The translations under genes and the position numbers were made by a program. From Cellulomonas persica (lineage in GTDB: Bacteria > Actinomycetota > Actinomycetes > Actinomycetales > Cellulomonadaceae): 64,000 bases of DNA. Positions 974 through 45,492 of the stretch are shown here, in pieces (the first letter of the stretch is position 1; each line of letters opens with the position of its first letter). Location of the stretch: contig NZ_BJUA01000004.1 in assembly GCF_007989825.1 (NCBI RefSeq), positions 62,001 through 126,000 of the forward strand. The letters are read 5' to 3'. Below the pieces are notes generated by a model. The model saw nothing but the letters and a program-made list of their open reading frames with translations. It did no database searches and was not told the origin of the DNA.

Positions 974-1709
974 GCCCGACGCGTTCCTCGACGCCGGCTT
1001 CCTCGAGAGCGGACCGAACCCGGTGGTGCTCGTCCTGGTCGTCGGGCTCGTGCTCATGGGCGGGCTGCTGACCTGGTCCGTGATCTCGCACCGCAAGCAC
1101 CAGAAGGCGCTGGACGCGTGGCTCGAGCCGCGTCGCTGGCGCCGGCTCCCGGCGGCCGACCGCTCGCTCGTGAGCCGCTGGCGTGGCACGCCGTTCGGGA
1201 CGGGCGACAACCGCAAGGTCACCGACGTGATCGCGGGGTCGTTCCAGGGCTACGACCTCCTGTCGTTCGTGTACTCGTACGAGACGTCGAGCACCGACAG
1301 CGACGGCAGCCGCTCGACGACGACGCACACGTTCCACGTCCTCACGCTGCAGCTCCCGGCGTTCCTGCCGGACCTGGAGGTCACGCCCGAGTCGGTGGGC
1401 TCGCGCCTGGCCACCGCGTTCGGGAAGGTCGACCTGGACGTCGAGTCGGACGAGTTCAACAAGCGCTTCGTGGTGCGCGCGACGGACCTGGCGGTGGGCC
1501 ACGCGATCCTGCACCCGCGCCTCGTCGAGCGGTTGCTGCGCGAGGGTCGCGTCGCGTGGCGCATCGAGGGGACGACGCTCCTGACCTGGGCGTCGGGGCG
1601 GACGAACCTGCAGCGGCTGGACGCGCGCATCGCGATGCTCGCCGCGATCGCCGGCTCGGTCCCCCGACATGTCTGGCTGGACCACGGGCACGACCCGCTG
1701 GCCCGCTAG
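966..1709 (+). CDS. Membrane protein of unknown function, tandem paralogue 2
   Basis: This 247-residue protein starts with GTG inside the end of the preceding paralogue. It has one clear membrane segment (about residues 18-38, VVLVLVVGLVLMGGLL) and then a soluble domain with a Ser/Thr-rich patch near residue 115. The conserved C-terminal PRHVWLD motif is shared with the upstream gene. The order paralogue-paralogue-LemA on one strand with short gaps suggests one operon and a shared envelope function. No enzymatic motif is visible. Confidence 0.75.
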   Translation: MGEPDAFLDAGFLESGPNPVVLVLVVGLVLMGGLLTWSVISHRKHQKALDAWLEPRRWRRLPAADRSLVSRWRGTPFGTGDNRKVTDVIAGSFQGYDLLSFVYSYETSSTDSDGSRSTTTHTFHVLTLQLPAFLPDLEVTPESVGSRLATAFGKVDLDVESDEFNKRFVVRATDLAVGHAILHPRLVERLLREGRVAWRIEGTTLLTWASGRTNLQRLDARIAMLAAIAGSVPRHVWLDHGHDPLAR

Positions 1710-1739: not shown

Positions 1740-2309
1740 GTGCCCGCTGGAGCCATCGTCGCGATCGTCGTGGTCGCGCTCGTCCTCATCGTCCTGCTGT
1801 GGGCCGTCGCGCAGTACAACGCGCTCGTACGGCTGCGGAACCTGGTCCAGGAGTCGTGGCGCCAGATCGACGTCGAGCTGCACCGCCGGCACGACCTGAT
1901 CCCGAACCTCGTCGAGACCGTCAAGGGCTACGCCGCGCACGAGCGCGCGGTGTTCGACGAGGTCACGCGCGCGCGGGCGGCCGCCGCCGGGGCGGGTGCG
2001 TCGGTCGCGGAGCAGGCCGCGCAGGAGAACGTGCTGACGCAGGCGCTGGGTCGCCTGTTCGCGGTCGCGGAGAACTACCCGGTGCTGCGCGCGAGCGAGA
2101 ACTTCCAGCAGCTGCAGAACGAGCTGTCGACGACCGAGGACCGCATCGCGGCCGCGCGGCGGTTCTACAACGCGAACGTCCGCAGCCTCAACACGAAGAT
2201 CGAGACCTTCCCGACGAACGTCATCGCGGGCATGTTCCACTTCGAGCGGGCCGAGTACTTCGAGGTCGAGGACCCGCAGGTCCGCCAGGCGCCGACCGTC
2301 CAGTTCTGA
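1740..2309 (+). CDS. LemA family protein
   Basis: The 189-residue product has an N-terminal membrane anchor (residues 5-22). The LemA core follows: YNALVRLRNLVQESWRQIDVELHRRHDLIPNLVETVKGY is the canonical region, with NFQQLQNELSTTEDRIAAARRFYN further on. The GTG start has a good Shine-Dalgarno (ggagaaggag) 6 nt upstream. LemA proteins are helical-bundle envelope proteins of uncertain role. It closes the three-gene run starting at 125. Confidence 0.92.
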   Translation: MPAGAIVAIVVVALVLIVLLWAVAQYNALVRLRNLVQESWRQIDVELHRRHDLIPNLVETVKGYAAHERAVFDEVTRARAAAAGAGASVAEQAAQENVLTQALGRLFAVAENYPVLRASENFQQLQNELSTTEDRIAAARRFYNANVRSLNTKIETFPTNVIAGMFHFERAEYFEVEDPQVRQAPTVQF

Positions 2310-2427
2310 GGCCCCGCGCTCGATCGACCCGCGGCCGGTCATCCCACGAGGGGTGGCCGGCCGTCGTCGTCCCTGGCTGCAGCCGGGGCGGGCGCCCGGT
2401 CCCCGGGCAGGTCGGCGACGGACGGGG

Positions 2428-23106: not shown

Positions 23107-24360
23107 TCAGGCCAGGGTGGAGAGGGCCTGGGCCAGGTCGTCCTTGAGATCGGCGACGTCTTCCAGACCGACGGAGAAGCGGACGGTCGCCTCGCCGATG
23201 CCGACCTTGGCGCGGCCCTCGGGGCCGAGCTTGCGGTGCGTGGTCGTCGCGGGGTGCGTGACGATCGACTTGGCGTCGCCCAGGTTGTTGGAGATGTCCA
23301 CGACGCGCAGCGCGTCGAGCACGCCGAAGGTGGCCTTCTTCGCGATCTCCGGCGTGGTGCCCTCCGGCGTGCGCAGCGTGAACGTCACGACCGTCCCGCC
23401 GCCGGTCTGCTGCCGGCGCGCCAGGTCGTGCTGCGGGTGCGAGGGCAGGAACGGGTAGCGCACGGACTCGACGGCCGGGTGGTCCTCGAGCCACTGCGCG
23501 AGCGTCAGCGCGGACGCGGCCTGGTGCCGCACCCGGACGGACAGCGTCTCGAGGCCCTTGAGCAGCACCCACGCGTTGAACGGGGAGAGCGACGGGCCGG
23601 TGTTGCGGATCAGCGTCTGCACGGGGCCACGCACGAAGTCCTCGGAGCCCAGGATCGCGCCGCCGAGCACGCGGCCCTGCCCGTCGATGTGCTTGGTCGC
23701 GGAGTACACGACGACGTCCGCGCCCAGGTCGAGCGGGCGGGAGAACACGGGCGTCGCGAACACGTTGTCGACGACGACGGTCGCCCCCGCCGCGTGTCCG
23801 AGGCGCGCGACGGCCTCGATGTCGACCAGGTCCTGCATGGGGTTGGACGGCGTCTCGAAGAACACGACGTCGGCGGGGGTGGCCAGAGCGGCCTCCCACT
23901 GCGCGAGCTCGTGGCCGTCGACGTAGTCGGTGCGCACGCCCCACTTCGCGAGGATCTCGTCGAAGATCACGACGCTCGAGCCGAACAGCGCACGCGCGGC
24001 GACGATCCGCGAGCCCTGGCCGACGAGCGCGGCGAGCGCGGTGAACACCGCCGACATCCCGGACGCGGTCGAGTAGCAGGCCTCGGCGCCGTCGAGCAGG
24101 CGCAGGCGCTCCTCGAACGTGGAGACGGTGGGGTTGTTGTAGCGCGAGTACAGGAACCGGTCGACGTCGCCGGCGAACGCGGCCTCGGCCTGACCGGCGG
24201 AGTCGTAGGTGAAGCCCTGCGTGAGGAACAGGGCCTCGCCGAACTCGCCGAACTGCGAGCGCACCTGCCCGCCACGCACCGCGAGGGTGTCGGGGCGCAG
24301 CGCGGAGCGGTCGACGCGGCGGGCGTCCCAGTCGCCGGGGCCGGGGACGCGCGCGCTCAC
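23107..24360 (-). CDS. metZ: O-succinylhomoserine (or O-acetylhomoserine) sulfhydrylase
   Basis: The 417-residue Cys/Met-metabolism PLP enzyme makes homocysteine directly from an activated homoserine and sulfide. Motifs are FLTQGFTYDSAGQAEAAF, YSRYNNPTVSTFEERL, ETPSNPMQDLVDI and the PLP lysine in YSATKHIDGQGRVLGG near residue 210. The text matches the MetZ branch more than MetB. The GTG start overlaps the rhodanese stop (GTGA), so both are under the SAM-I riboswitch upstream. Donor preference (succinyl or acetyl) is not certain from sequence. Confidence 0.92.
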   Translation of the reverse strand: MSARVPGPGDWDARRVDRSALRPDTLAVRGGQVRSQFGEFGEALFLTQGFTYDSAGQAEAAFAGDVDRFLYSRYNNPTVSTFEERLRLLDGAEACYSTASGMSAVFTALAALVGQGSRIVAARALFGSSVVIFDEILAKWGVRTDYVDGHELAQWEAALATPADVVFFETPSNPMQDLVDIEAVARLGHAAGATVVVDNVFATPVFSRPLDLGADVVVYSATKHIDGQGRVLGGAILGSEDFVRGPVQTLIRNTGPSLSPFNAWVLLKGLETLSVRVRHQAASALTLAQWLEDHPAVESVRYPFLPSHPQHDLARRQQTGGGTVVTFTLRTPEGTTPEIAKKATFGVLDALRVVDISNNLGDAKSIVTHPATTTHRKLGPEGRAKVGIGEATVRFSVGLEDVADLKDDLAQALSTLA

Positions 24361-24770
24361 GCCTGCCGCCAGGGCAGACCCTCGGCGCGCCAGCCCCAGT
24401 GGCCTCGCTGGCCGTCGGGGCCGATGTCGCCCTCGAAACCGCGCAGCACGTTGTACGCGGGGCCGAAGCCGGCGGCGGTCGCGGCCTGCGCGGCCGCGAC
24501 GGAGCGCACGCCCGACCGGCACAGGAACACCACCGGGCGTCCGTCGCCGGGCTCGAGGCCGGCGAGGGCCAGCTGGTCGAGGAACGCGGGGTTCGGGCCG
24601 GCGGGCGTGAGCCACTCGACGAACGCCGCGCGGTCGCCCGCCTCCGACGCGTCGGGCACGCCGATCTGCAGCCACTCGCCCTCGGTGCGGACGTCGACGA
24701 GCAGCGCGCGCTCGTCGGACGTCAGCAGGTCCCAGGCCTCCTGCGGGGTGAGGTCGCCTGCGTAGGCCAT
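24357..24770 (-). CDS. Rhodanese-like sulfurtransferase
   Basis: The 137-residue single rhodanese domain has the active-site loop FLCRSGVRS, with Cys near residue 95, and starts LTPQEAWDLLTSDERALLVDVRTEGEW. It likely handles sulfane sulfur for the coupled metZ step. The ATG at 24770 is decided by GGAGG 5 nt upstream; that Shine-Dalgarno overlaps the 3' strand of the SAM-I riboswitch P1 helix. Longer upstream frames read through the riboswitch and are not coding. Confidence 0.92.
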   Translation of the reverse strand: MAYAGDLTPQEAWDLLTSDERALLVDVRTEGEWLQIGVPDASEAGDRAAFVEWLTPAGPNPAFLDQLALAGLEPGDGRPVVFLCRSGVRSVAAAQAATAAGFGPAYNVLRGFEGDIGPDGQRGHWGWRAEGLPWRQA

Positions 24771-24778
24771 GTTCTCCT

Positions 24779-24889
24779 CCATCGGTCCTGGCGGTAGCAC
24801 CCTCGGCCGGTCGCCCGCCTCGTTCGAGGCGCGGGACCGCGGGTTGCTGCGGCGTCGTCGAGCCAGATCTCTCGGCCGCTCTGGATGGT
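24779..24889 (-). promoter_or_regulatory. SAM-I (S-box) riboswitch upstream of rhodanese-metZ
   Basis: Read on the minus strand, the region has the S-box landmarks: ATCCAGAGCGGCCGAGAGAT, CTGGCTCGACGACGCCGCAG, CAACCC and GGGTGCTACCGCCAGGACC. The P1 helix can form from CCATC (24885-24889) and GATGG (24779-24783). The 3' P1 strand runs into the GGAGG Shine-Dalgarno, so SAM binding can block translation of the rhodanese-metZ operon. A TACGCT -10 box lies just upstream on the minus strand (24896-24901), placing transcription start at the aptamer's 5' end. Confidence 0.9.
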
Positions 24890-24972
24890 GGCAGGAGCGT
24901 AACGCCATGAACGGACAGGCATCCACCTGTTGAACATCACGTCCCGCGCTGTGAGACGTGCACGGTTCGGCG

Positions 24973-25002
24973 TTGACAGTCGCGCGGCGCGATCGCCAGT
25001 CT
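24973..25002 (+). promoter_or_regulatory. Promoter of the SAM-IV-controlled transcript
   Basis: TTGACA (24973-24978), an 18-bp spacer and CAGTCT (24997-25002) form a near-consensus pair. The inferred start, 7-9 nt downstream, coincides with the first base of the SAM-IV aptamer. Confidence 0.65.
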
Positions 25003-25010
25003 TTCCGTCA

Positions 25011-25124
25011 GGTCATGAGCGCCAGCGCGAAGCCCCGGCTCGCTGGCCGGCAACCCTCCTCCGCGGTGGGGTGCCCCGGGTGACGACCAGGCCGTGCACC
25101 GACCGGTGACGGCAAGCGCGGGAC
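25011..25124 (+). promoter_or_regulatory. SAM-IV riboswitch upstream of the class V aminotransferase
   Basis: The sequence follows the actinobacterial SAM-IV consensus closely: GGTCATGAGCGCCAGCG, AAGCCCCGGCTCGCTGGC, CGGCAACCCTCC, GTGGGGTGCCCCGGGTGACG, ACC, and the distinctive 3' segment GACGGCAAGCGCGGG. P1 is formed by GGTC (25011-25014) and GACC near 25085. The gene start is 38 nt beyond, and its Shine-Dalgarno lies in a GGAGGTACCTCC palindrome (25150-25161). Confidence 0.92.
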
Positions 25125-25161
25125 ACCCCCACGGGGTCCCCGGATCCTCGGAGGTACCTCC

Positions 25162-26589
25162 ATGACCGTTCTCGCCGAGCAGTCGTGTCTCGAGGTCGTC
25201 CCGTCGGGCAGCCCGACGAGCGCGACGGCCGACCCTGCGCCCGTCGAGGCGCTGCTCCCCGTCGTCGGGGGCACGACCACGGTGCCGCTCGTGGACGGCA
25301 CGCAGCGCGTCTACGCGAACCTGGACTACGCCGCGAGCGCGCCCGCGCTGCAGGCGGTCGCGGACCGGGTGACCGAGGTGCTGCCGCTGTACGCCTCGGT
25401 CCACCGCGGCGCGGGCTACCTCTCGCAGGTCTCGACCGCGCTGTACGAGTCCGCGCGCCAGACCATCGCGCGGTTCGTCGACGCACGGGACGACGACGTC
25501 GCGGTCATCACCCGCAACACGACCGACTCCCTGAACCTGCTGGCGGGCGTCGTCCCCGCGGGCGGACGCGTGCTCGTGCTCGACCTCGAGCACCACGCCA
25601 ACCTGCTCCCGTGGGTGCGCACGTCCGACCGGCACGCGCACCGCACGACGATCCTGCCCATCGCCGCGACGGTCGCGCTGACGCTCGAGTCCCTCGCGGC
25701 CGAGCTCGCCGCGAACCCGTACGCGCTGGTCACGGTGTCCGGGGCATCGAACGTCACCGGTGAGGCGCTGCCGGTCGAGCGCGTCGTCGAGATCGCGCAC
25801 GCCGCCGGTGCGCGCGTGGCCGTGGACGGCGCGCAGCTCGTCCCGCACCGCGGCTTCTCGCTCGCCCGCACGGGCGCCGACTACGTGGCGTTCTCCGGGC
25901 ACAAGACCTACGCACCCTTCGGTGCGGGAGCGCTCGTGGGCCGCCGCGACTGGCTCGACACGGGCACGCCGTACCTCGCAGGGGGAGGTGCGGTGCGCGA
26001 CGTGCGGACCGATCGGACGGTGTGGCAGCCGGCGCCCGCGCGGCACGAGGCCGGTTCGCCCAACGTCGTCGGCGCGATCGCGCTGGCCGAGGCGTGCGAC
26101 GCGCTCGCCGCGCTGCCGACGGGTGCGCTGACCGAGCACGAGTCGGCGCTGCGCTCGCGGCTCGTGGCCGGGCTCGAGCAGGTGCCCGGCGTGCAGGTCG
26201 TGCGGATCTGGCCGGACTCCGACGAGCCCGTGGGTGTCGTGACGTTCACGGTCGCCGACCACAACCCCGGCCTCGTCGCCGCCTACCTCGCGGCCGAGCA
26301 CGGCATCGGGGTCCGCGACGGCCGGTTCTGCGCGCACCCGCTGCTGTCCCGCCTGGGTGCGTCCGAGGGTGCGATCCGCGCGTCGGTGGGCGTCGGCACG
26401 CCGAGCGAGGCGGTCGACCGCCTGGTCGCGGCGCTGCACGCCTACGTGACCGACGGGCCGCGTTCGCGGTACGAGGTGGTCGACGGGTGCTGGGCGGTCG
26501 TCGACGACACGCGTCCGCTGATCGAGGTGCACGGCCTGGACCACCTGGCCGCGACCGCCGCGGCGGCGTGCGGTCCCGCGCTGGACTGA
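25162..26589 (+). CDS. Class V aminotransferase-fold PLP enzyme (cysteine desulfurase-like)
   Basis: The 475-residue protein has the SufS/Csd-type fold. Visible are YANLDYAASAPAL, ASVHRGAGYLS, HHANLLPW, VAVDGAQLVPH and the PLP lysine in FSGHKTYAPFGAG near residue 255. It resembles cysteine desulfurases but lacks an obvious conserved mobile-loop cysteine, so the reaction could be another C-S lyase or aminotransfer. The first 45 residues are an unusual extension. Control by a SAM-IV riboswitch places it in methionine/SAM-linked sulfur metabolism. It is divergent from rhodanese-metZ. Confidence 0.85.
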   Translation: MTVLAEQSCLEVVPSGSPTSATADPAPVEALLPVVGGTTTVPLVDGTQRVYANLDYAASAPALQAVADRVTEVLPLYASVHRGAGYLSQVSTALYESARQTIARFVDARDDDVAVITRNTTDSLNLLAGVVPAGGRVLVLDLEHHANLLPWVRTSDRHAHRTTILPIAATVALTLESLAAELAANPYALVTVSGASNVTGEALPVERVVEIAHAAGARVAVDGAQLVPHRGFSLARTGADYVAFSGHKTYAPFGAGALVGRRDWLDTGTPYLAGGGAVRDVRTDRTVWQPAPARHEAGSPNVVGAIALAEACDALAALPTGALTEHESALRSRLVAGLEQVPGVQVVRIWPDSDEPVGVVTFTVADHNPGLVAAYLAAEHGIGVRDGRFCAHPLLSRLGASEGAIRASVGVGTPSEAVDRLVAALHAYVTDGPRSRYEVVDGCWAVVDDTRPLIEVHGLDHLAATAAAACGPALD

Positions 26590-45365: not shown

Positions 45366-45492
45366 GCCCTCGCACTTCCCTCGTCCGTCACGGTTGCCGG
45401 CCCGCGGGCCGGCCCGGTCTTCCCCGGGAGCACCCCGTCGTGACCGGGGTTGCCGACCAGCGAGCCGGGGCTTGGCGCTGGTTCTCGTGACC
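45366..45492 (-). promoter_or_regulatory. SAM riboswitch (SAM-IV/SAM-I-IV variant) upstream of the FMN reductase
   Basis: On the minus strand GGTCACGAG, CCAGCGCCAAGCCCCGGCTC, GCTGGTCGGCAACCCC, GGGGTGCTCCCGGGGAAGACC and a 3' GAAGTGCGAGGG reproduce the SAM-IV layout seen at 25011. GGTC and GACC form P1. The GAGGG near the 3' end is also the Shine-Dalgarno of the reductase, 7 nt before its ATG. A TATACC -10 box lies just upstream on this strand (45502-45507). Confidence 0.78.

Follow-up and report, generated by a model that had tools for sequence, protein, structure and literature searches.

The riboswitch classes SAM-I and SAM-IV share a SAM-binding core and differ in their outer parts, as described in the cryo-EM structure paper on SAM-IV (PMC6890682). 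The class marks of SAM-I include a P4 hairpin between J3/4 and P1 (PMC7270179, PMC6890682), and SAM-I/IV is described as being without PK-1 and with P4 (PMC6890682). A Shine-Dalgarno placed within the P1 3' strand has already been published for SAM-I (PMC2258182). Streptomyces lividans is reported to carry both SAM-I and SAM-IV, with SAM-IV ahead of a cysteine desulfurase (PMC8079986), and tandem SAM-II/SAM-V and SAM-II/SAM-I-IV arrangements are known (PMC9481103). All of these statements follow the available portions of the papers cited.

The presence of both classes in one genome is common: among 296 genomes drawn evenly from the phylum, SAM-I was found in 145, SAM-IV in 26 and both in 14, i.e. 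in 14 of the 26 SAM-IV genomes. A close divergent pair was seen, by eye and among the listed places, in two of these 14, namely Cellulomonas persica and G130, a member of another family of the class. G364, distantly placed within the phylum, has three elements in series on a single strand inside 2 kb, in the order SAM-IV, SAM-I, SAM-IV (L361:352-458, 1501-1591 and 2246-2351, minus strand). The initial annotation of the C. persica locus had described its two aptamers as architectures of unrelated origin. Rfam, however, puts SAM-I and SAM-IV in one clan, CL00012, and the core common to both classes (PMC6890682) likewise argues against that description.

The divergent locus and its recurrence

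The window, i.e. the whole stretch of 64,000 nucleotides of C. persica DNA that was analysed, was searched with cmscan at the Rfam gathering thresholds. The SAM-I match spans the full model (1-108) with 48.4 bits against a cut-off of 44.4 (E 5e-08), and the SAM-IV match also spans its full model (1-116), with 106.8 bits against 38 (E 1.1e-18). The aptamers are divergent with 119 bp between them (Table 1). This agrees with the initial annotation, which had proposed two SAM riboswitch classes scoring above the Rfam thresholds, with divergent starts about 120 bp apart and heading neighbouring rhodanese-metZ and class V PLP operons; the profile matches identify the genes as claimed. The distance it gave for SAM-IV is also borne out, the aptamer ending 37 nt upstream of the ATG. 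The start that it claimed, 24779, lies 3 nt inside the SAM-I aptamer, whose true edge is 24776. The P1 3' strand does more than abut the Shine-Dalgarno, since GAUGGAGG contains it. The class V PLP enzyme is closest to SufS-type cysteine desulfurases (TIGR01979, 290 bits, under the cut-off of 475).

Table 1. Features of the divergent locus, in positions of the window
Feature	Position	Strand	Basis
metZ, O-succinylhomoserine sulfhydrylase, 417 aa	23107..24360	-	PF01053; NF005870 712.6 bits, cut-off 618
Rhodanese-like protein, 137 aa, gene nearest the SAM-I aptamer	24357..24770	-	PF00581, E 4.7e-10
GGAGG Shine-Dalgarno of the rhodanese gene, within the P1 3' strand; ATG 5 nt on	24776..24780	-	sequence and P1 pair conservation
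P1 3' strand of the SAM-I aptamer, GAUGGAGG	24783-24776	-	
SAM-I-type aptamer, helix P4 absent	24776..24891	-	Rfam RF00162
Inferred promoter of the SAM-I transcript: -35 TGGATG 24925-24920, 18 nt, -10 TACGCT 24901-24896	24896..24925	-	sequence and conservation
Palindrome CGTCCC-N7-GAGACG, candidate operator common to both promoters	24940..24958	.	conserved place in the genus
Longer form of the palindrome, CACGTCCC-N7-GAGACGTG	24938-24960		
Inferred promoter of the SAM-IV transcript: -35 TTGACA 24973-24978, 18 nt, -10-like CAGTCT 24997-25002	24973..25002	+	sequence; GTTGACA kept in the genus alignment
SAM-IV aptamer	25011..25124	+	Rfam RF00634
GGAGG Shine-Dalgarno of the class V gene	25150..25154	+	sequence
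Class V PLP enzyme, SufS-like cysteine desulfurase family, 475 aa	25162..26589	+	PF00266, E 8.9e-85

The inferred SAM-I start site falls on the 5' end of the aptamer or 2 nt inside it; a consensus promoter scan returned no sigma-70 site for either inferred promoter. On the plus strand, the PK-1 and PK-2 strings of SAM-IV were found in 65 of 65 genus copies and the P1 strings in 64 of 65, and P5 was aligned by cmscan. PK-2 reads CCGCG/CGCGG in this aptamer and L3 GUCACG/tail CGUGAC in a second SAM-IV of the window (45385-45492, minus strand, 73.6 bits, ahead of an FMN reductase-like gene), differing by eye on both sides between the two.

Among 81 genomes of the genus, SAM-I matches were found in 79 and SAM-IV matches in 76. 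The divergent pair occurs at 83-245 bp in at least 52 of the 81, 48 of these having it at 97-120 bp, and further divergent pairs lie at 725-1457 bp in at least 13 genomes and at 4737 bp in one. These pair counts were made from the 150 best listed matches per class and are lower bounds, because weaker matches fall outside the list; the recurrence of the pair in the genus exceeds chance. In some genus branches (L119-L131) the 725-1457 bp between the riboswitches hold inserted ORFs and the divergence is kept. The idea that a regulator gene had been inserted there was abandoned: of the two inserts that were searched, that in L121 is a GNAT acetyltransferase and that in L127 has a PIN domain, neither being a transcription factor, and the remaining inserts were judged by reading.

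A second set of 80 named loci, the top-ranking 80 among 153 retrieved with the class V protein, came from Cellulomonas, Cellulosimicrobium, Oerskovia, Sanguibacter, Isoptericola, Timonella and others. Here SAM-IV was located by sequence pattern and SAM-I by a search with R1, a model of the minus-strand aptamer. R1 was found in 78 of the 80, always on the strand opposite to the class V gene (the misses are L185, where the contig is cut, and L188), and no SAM-IV was found by pattern in five. Both elements are present in 73, within 250 bp of each other in 55, at 251-2000 bp in 16 and at 2.7 and 3.7 kb in two; these figures supersede a regular-expression pair count (39 and 45 of 80) that proved too strict where sister genera were concerned. 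The named-locus and genus counts are not independent, because the sets overlap and some loci were in the R1 training. When Rfam models were run on 26 of the 80, mostly not Cellulomonas, all 26 had a SAM-IV ahead of the class V gene and 14 had a SAM-I above its cut-off. G130 has a divergent SAM-I/SAM-IV pair with a gap of 164 bp, and its class V gene shows 61% identity across 386 residues. Both aptamers, their structures, their genes and the conserved arrangement are established, the pairing being old in Cellulomonas and its relatives.

The explanation that we regard as probable is a conserved divergent sulfur locus in which each transcript is headed by its own SAM switch lowering expression at high SAM, the two classes adjoining as gene neighbours. 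Each transcript would start at, or a few bases from, its own aptamer. On the minus strand, the P4-less SAM-I would form P1 when SAM is bound, and because the P1 3' strand contains the rhodanese Shine-Dalgarno, translation of rhodanese-metZ is proposed to fall at high SAM. On the plus strand, high SAM would act through SAM-IV to lower expression of the class V PLP gene, most likely by hiding the Shine-Dalgarno, because no terminator-like site was found in 24700-25200. The adjacency itself is proposed to reflect gene neighbourhood, two sulfur genes lying side by side and each having its own ancestral switch class. Against this explanation stand the SAM-I score, which exceeds the cut-off by only 4 bits, and the missing P4, and so do the partial pairing of the rhodanese Shine-Dalgarno, the weak pairing tests for SAM-IV and the empty promoter scan.

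Control by SAM-IV at the level of translation is our best guess, and the pairing tests on 38 of 40 leaders (G038 and G040 were excluded for an unusual start region) were weak. A hairpin of the SAM-IV tail with the downstream C-run was rejected, as in the 38 sequences it did not improve on shuffles (mean z +0.39), and pairing of the C-run with the Shine-Dalgarno improved on them only slightly (mean z -0.81, with 16 of 38 below -1).

A palindrome between the two promoters

An alternative, which we consider possible but somewhat doubtful, is that a DNA-binding regulator shared by the two operons acts at the palindrome as their main control and that the riboswitches merely trim the output. The regular placing of the motif is in line with such a regulator: of 65 genus loci, 31 have YGTCYC-N7-GAGAY ahead of the SAM-IV aptamer, the position being -70 to -72 in 30 of these, and by eye the right half GAGAC is retained in most of 15 sister-genus intergenics. 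However, hominis-like and some other genus branches are without the palindrome. In the window it is not significant (1 match with 0.35 expected; 23 of 100 shuffles hold one).

From 43 of the 65 genus loci a motif was derived and then run on held-out promoters. Seventeen of 40 other SAM-I promoters (38 of the 40 at metF) scored above the 99% shuffle level of 8.3, and 16 of the sites lie at -56 to -58, which again favours a shared regulator, but 23 stayed under the threshold. Of the 13 among 40 other SAM-IV promoters that exceeded 7.7, four have the site at -71 or -72 and nine have it at scattered positions. The strength of these scores is further reduced because the metF sites, being orthologues of one another, count as few events, because the controls were single-base shuffles keeping base composition alone, and because the maximum in 392 coding windows, 7.9 (99% point 4.7), is higher than the SAM-IV threshold of 7.7. 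In the C. persica genome the strict pattern hits just 4 places compared with none for the reversed pattern, and several matches per genome are predicted by the window shuffles. The palindrome was discarded as a genome-wide operator with these 4 places, of which two others that were inspected were uninformative, lying about 60 nt past a glutamate 5-kinase-like ORF and inside a desaturase-like ORF. Its occurrence in some metF promoters is a hint of a shared regulator. Sites of LysR-type regulators have the form T-N11-A, and our guess is that the spacing of the palindrome would suit a regulator of this type.

Gene sets of the two classes

For each class, 40 of the 85 listed sites outside pairs were sampled and the downstream sequence (900 nt per site, except two with 376 and 398 nt) was compared with seven reference proteins. 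The best match downstream of the other SAM-I sites was metF in 38, metZ in 1 and rhodanese in 1. At the other SAM-IV sites it was SsuE-like in 8, cystine-symporter-like (SDF family) in 2 and class V in 2, with 28 unmatched, about 7 of which read as ABC-transporter permeases; metF or metZ was the best match at none of the 40. The genome of C. persica has 2 SAM-I and 4 SAM-IV among the matches listed. Outside the divergent pair, its SAM-I stands at metF (PF02219), and its SAM-IVs stand at an SDF symporter (PF00375), a nitroreductase (PF00881) and the FMN reductase-like gene (TIGR03567, where 85 bits fall short of the cut-off). These samples suggest a division of labour between SAM-I and SAM-IV by gene set. 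Such a split may be an alternative to the two response curves that had been suggested for this locus, each class perhaps simply tracking its own genes.

It could be argued that the pairing of two classes is itself functional, a difference in affinity or kinetics giving the two operons different SAM set points. We find this unlikely. The mixed pair persists across the genus and into several sister genera, 48 of 52 close genus pairs having a gap of 97-120 bp, and the classes hold separate gene sets in the samples, both of which such a function would accommodate. Vertical inheritance, however, accounts for the conservation, and the sampled sites show each class with a gene set of its own. The elements are 270 bp to 3.7 kb apart in 18 of the 73 named loci, and in G130 the SAM-IV of the class V gene faces a SAM-I whose partner gene is a 2OG-Fe(II) oxygenase-like ORF and not rhodanese-metZ. 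Divergent pairs of the same class also exist: five SAM-IV/SAM-IV pairs at 203-229 bp in the genus list (G005, G012, G030, G049 and G055) and one SAM-I/SAM-I pair in the order (L271:1186-1278, minus strand, and 1501-1602, plus strand). The explanation by neighbouring genes with ancestral switches is preferred. The locus is a natural pair, with one cell, one ligand and two sister aptamer designs on adjoining operons, that bears on why more than one class of SAM switch is kept, and the split between the methionine backbone and scavenging yields a concrete prediction.

At 8 of the 40 sampled SAM-IV sites an ORF of 24-34 codons with at least 4 cysteines (e.g. ...SSCCPGAGSGALSTCCR) starts 20-30 nt past the aptamer; the sites are in G020, G024, G031, G040, G041, G042, G074 and G080 (L316, L353, L333, L335, L331, L329, L348 and L352). 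Cysteine leader peptides are described upstream of mycobacterial cys operons in the available text of PMC1262725, and by analogy these short ORFs are possible candidates for a cysteine attenuator.

The aptamer without P4 and its place among known systems

The SAM-I aptamer retains P1, P2a/P2b with a kink-turn-like internal loop, P3 and the L2-J3/4 pseudoknot. P4 is absent, the pseudoknot strand being followed by P1 after only 2-4 nt in 65 of 65 genus copies; by comparison, 24-52 nt follow GGUGC in 27 of 28 readable top phylum SAM-I matches, a set that favours P4-bearing forms (2 of 30 were unreadable and L245 is ambiguous). Since the class marks in the available text of PMC7270179 lead one to expect P4, we name the element a P4-less variant and not canonical SAM-I.

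The inner five P1 pairs are present in 65, 65, 65, 65 and 61 of the 65 genus copies, and they reach the first GG of GGAGG. Pair 6 is formed in none of the 65 and the outer two pairs in 31 and 35, so that the Shine-Dalgarno would be base-paired only in part and its overlap with conserved P1 pairs may be just its first two bases. At the P1 3' strand, 47 of the 65 copies read GAUGGAGG, 4 read GAUGAGAC and 13 read GAUGGGAG; in the copies with the latter two strings the Shine-Dalgarno lies elsewhere, in part or entirely.

In an alignment of 53 SAM-I sequences 49 columns are invariant, although many of the sequences were chosen by a pattern demanding some core letters, including CUGG and CCAG; this pattern lost none of the 65 genus copies. 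Paired cells amount to 92.7% against 90.7% in shuffles and cells altered on both sides to 28 against 13.9, whereas further pair types, at 11 against 11.0, did not exceed the shuffles. Covariation was observed in P2b (A-U to U-A in 14 of 53) and in the outer pair of the pseudoknot (C-G in 40, G-C in 5, G-U in 1, unpaired in 5, gap in 2), while the pseudoknot UGG:CCA is invariant in 53 of 53. The P2 internal loop has invariant GA in columns 19-20 and again in columns 36-37, as judged from the sequence. No second pseudoknot (PK-2) was found by eye in the aptamer, and the stretch past P1 is the start of the gene.

Within the order, R1 matched 128 of 297 genomes, belonging to 54 of 94 genera, with a maximum of 13 matches in one genome. 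As a count of the P4-less type the figure of 128 is an upper limit, because R1 weakly matches P4-bearing SAM-I too (e.g. L382). The 24 best loci of the order by R1 all look P4-less on reading, and 20 of 20 tested pass RF00162. P4-less forms were recognised in at least 12 of 29 further loci, of which 28 lie outside the order, 8 were unreadable and 9 were left uncounted for a doubtful match end or odd type; all 12 are from outside the order. Restriction of the type to the genus was ruled out by these matches across the order and beyond. In two genomes of the order (G445 and G541) there are 13 and 12 R1 matches, some a few kilobases apart.

That the minus-strand element is a decayed, non-functional SAM-I relic would account for its 48.4 bits against 44.4 and for the lost P4, but is very improbable given the 49 invariant columns, the covariation in P2b and the pseudoknot and the R1 matches in 128 of 297 order genomes with P4-less forms beyond. 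P4-less SAM-I is thus a maintained subtype and a broad one, already filed by Rfam under SAM-I. A fold maintained without the helix used to define SAM-I bears on how the SAM clan diversified.

One may go further and picture a three-input sulfur node, a bold reading to which we give little credence. One palindrome regulator would set the transcription of both operons and two sister SAM switches would set translation separately, the P4-less SAM-I governing the methionine backbone (metZ, metF) and SAM-IV sulfur scavenging, so that two SAM thresholds would rank the tasks across Cellulomonas and its relatives. P4-less SAM-I would then be the missing fourth build of the clan, with PK-1 and without P4 or PK-2 (the absence of PK-2 being judged by eye).

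SAM-I/IV (RF01725) belongs to the same clan as SAM-I and SAM-IV and has PK-2. This identity was rejected for the minus-strand element, as a search of the genome with RF01725 came back empty even at E <= 10. With regard to the traits given for SAM-I/IV in the available text of PMC6890682 the element is in fact the opposite, having PK-1 and no P4. Compared with SAM-I (S box, RF00162), it passes the cut-off and has P1, the kink-turn-like P2 loop, P3 and the L2-J3/4 pseudoknot, and the published Shine-Dalgarno-in-P1 layout (PMC2258182, available portions) is also seen at the rhodanese gene; it differs in being without the P4 hairpin.

The plus-strand element is an ordinary, high-scoring SAM-IV (RF00634) with PK-1, PK-2 and P5 and without P4. 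It stands ahead of a cysteine-desulfurase-like gene, as does the SAM-IV of Streptomyces lividans in the available text of PMC8079986. The aptamer itself shows no difference from its class, and its divergent SAM-I neighbour is the sole difference seen. In the portions available, the literature searched describes neither a divergent SAM-I/SAM-IV pair nor a P4-less SAM-I, which is not proof of absence. As far as that literature shows, the conserved divergent two-class pairing and the P4-less SAM-I subtype are new, and the parts are of known kinds. The tandem SAM-II/SAM-V and SAM-II/SAM-I-IV arrangements (PMC9481103, available portions) likewise bring two classes for one ligand together at one locus, but they do so in series on one transcript, whereas the two classes here head two divergent transcripts.
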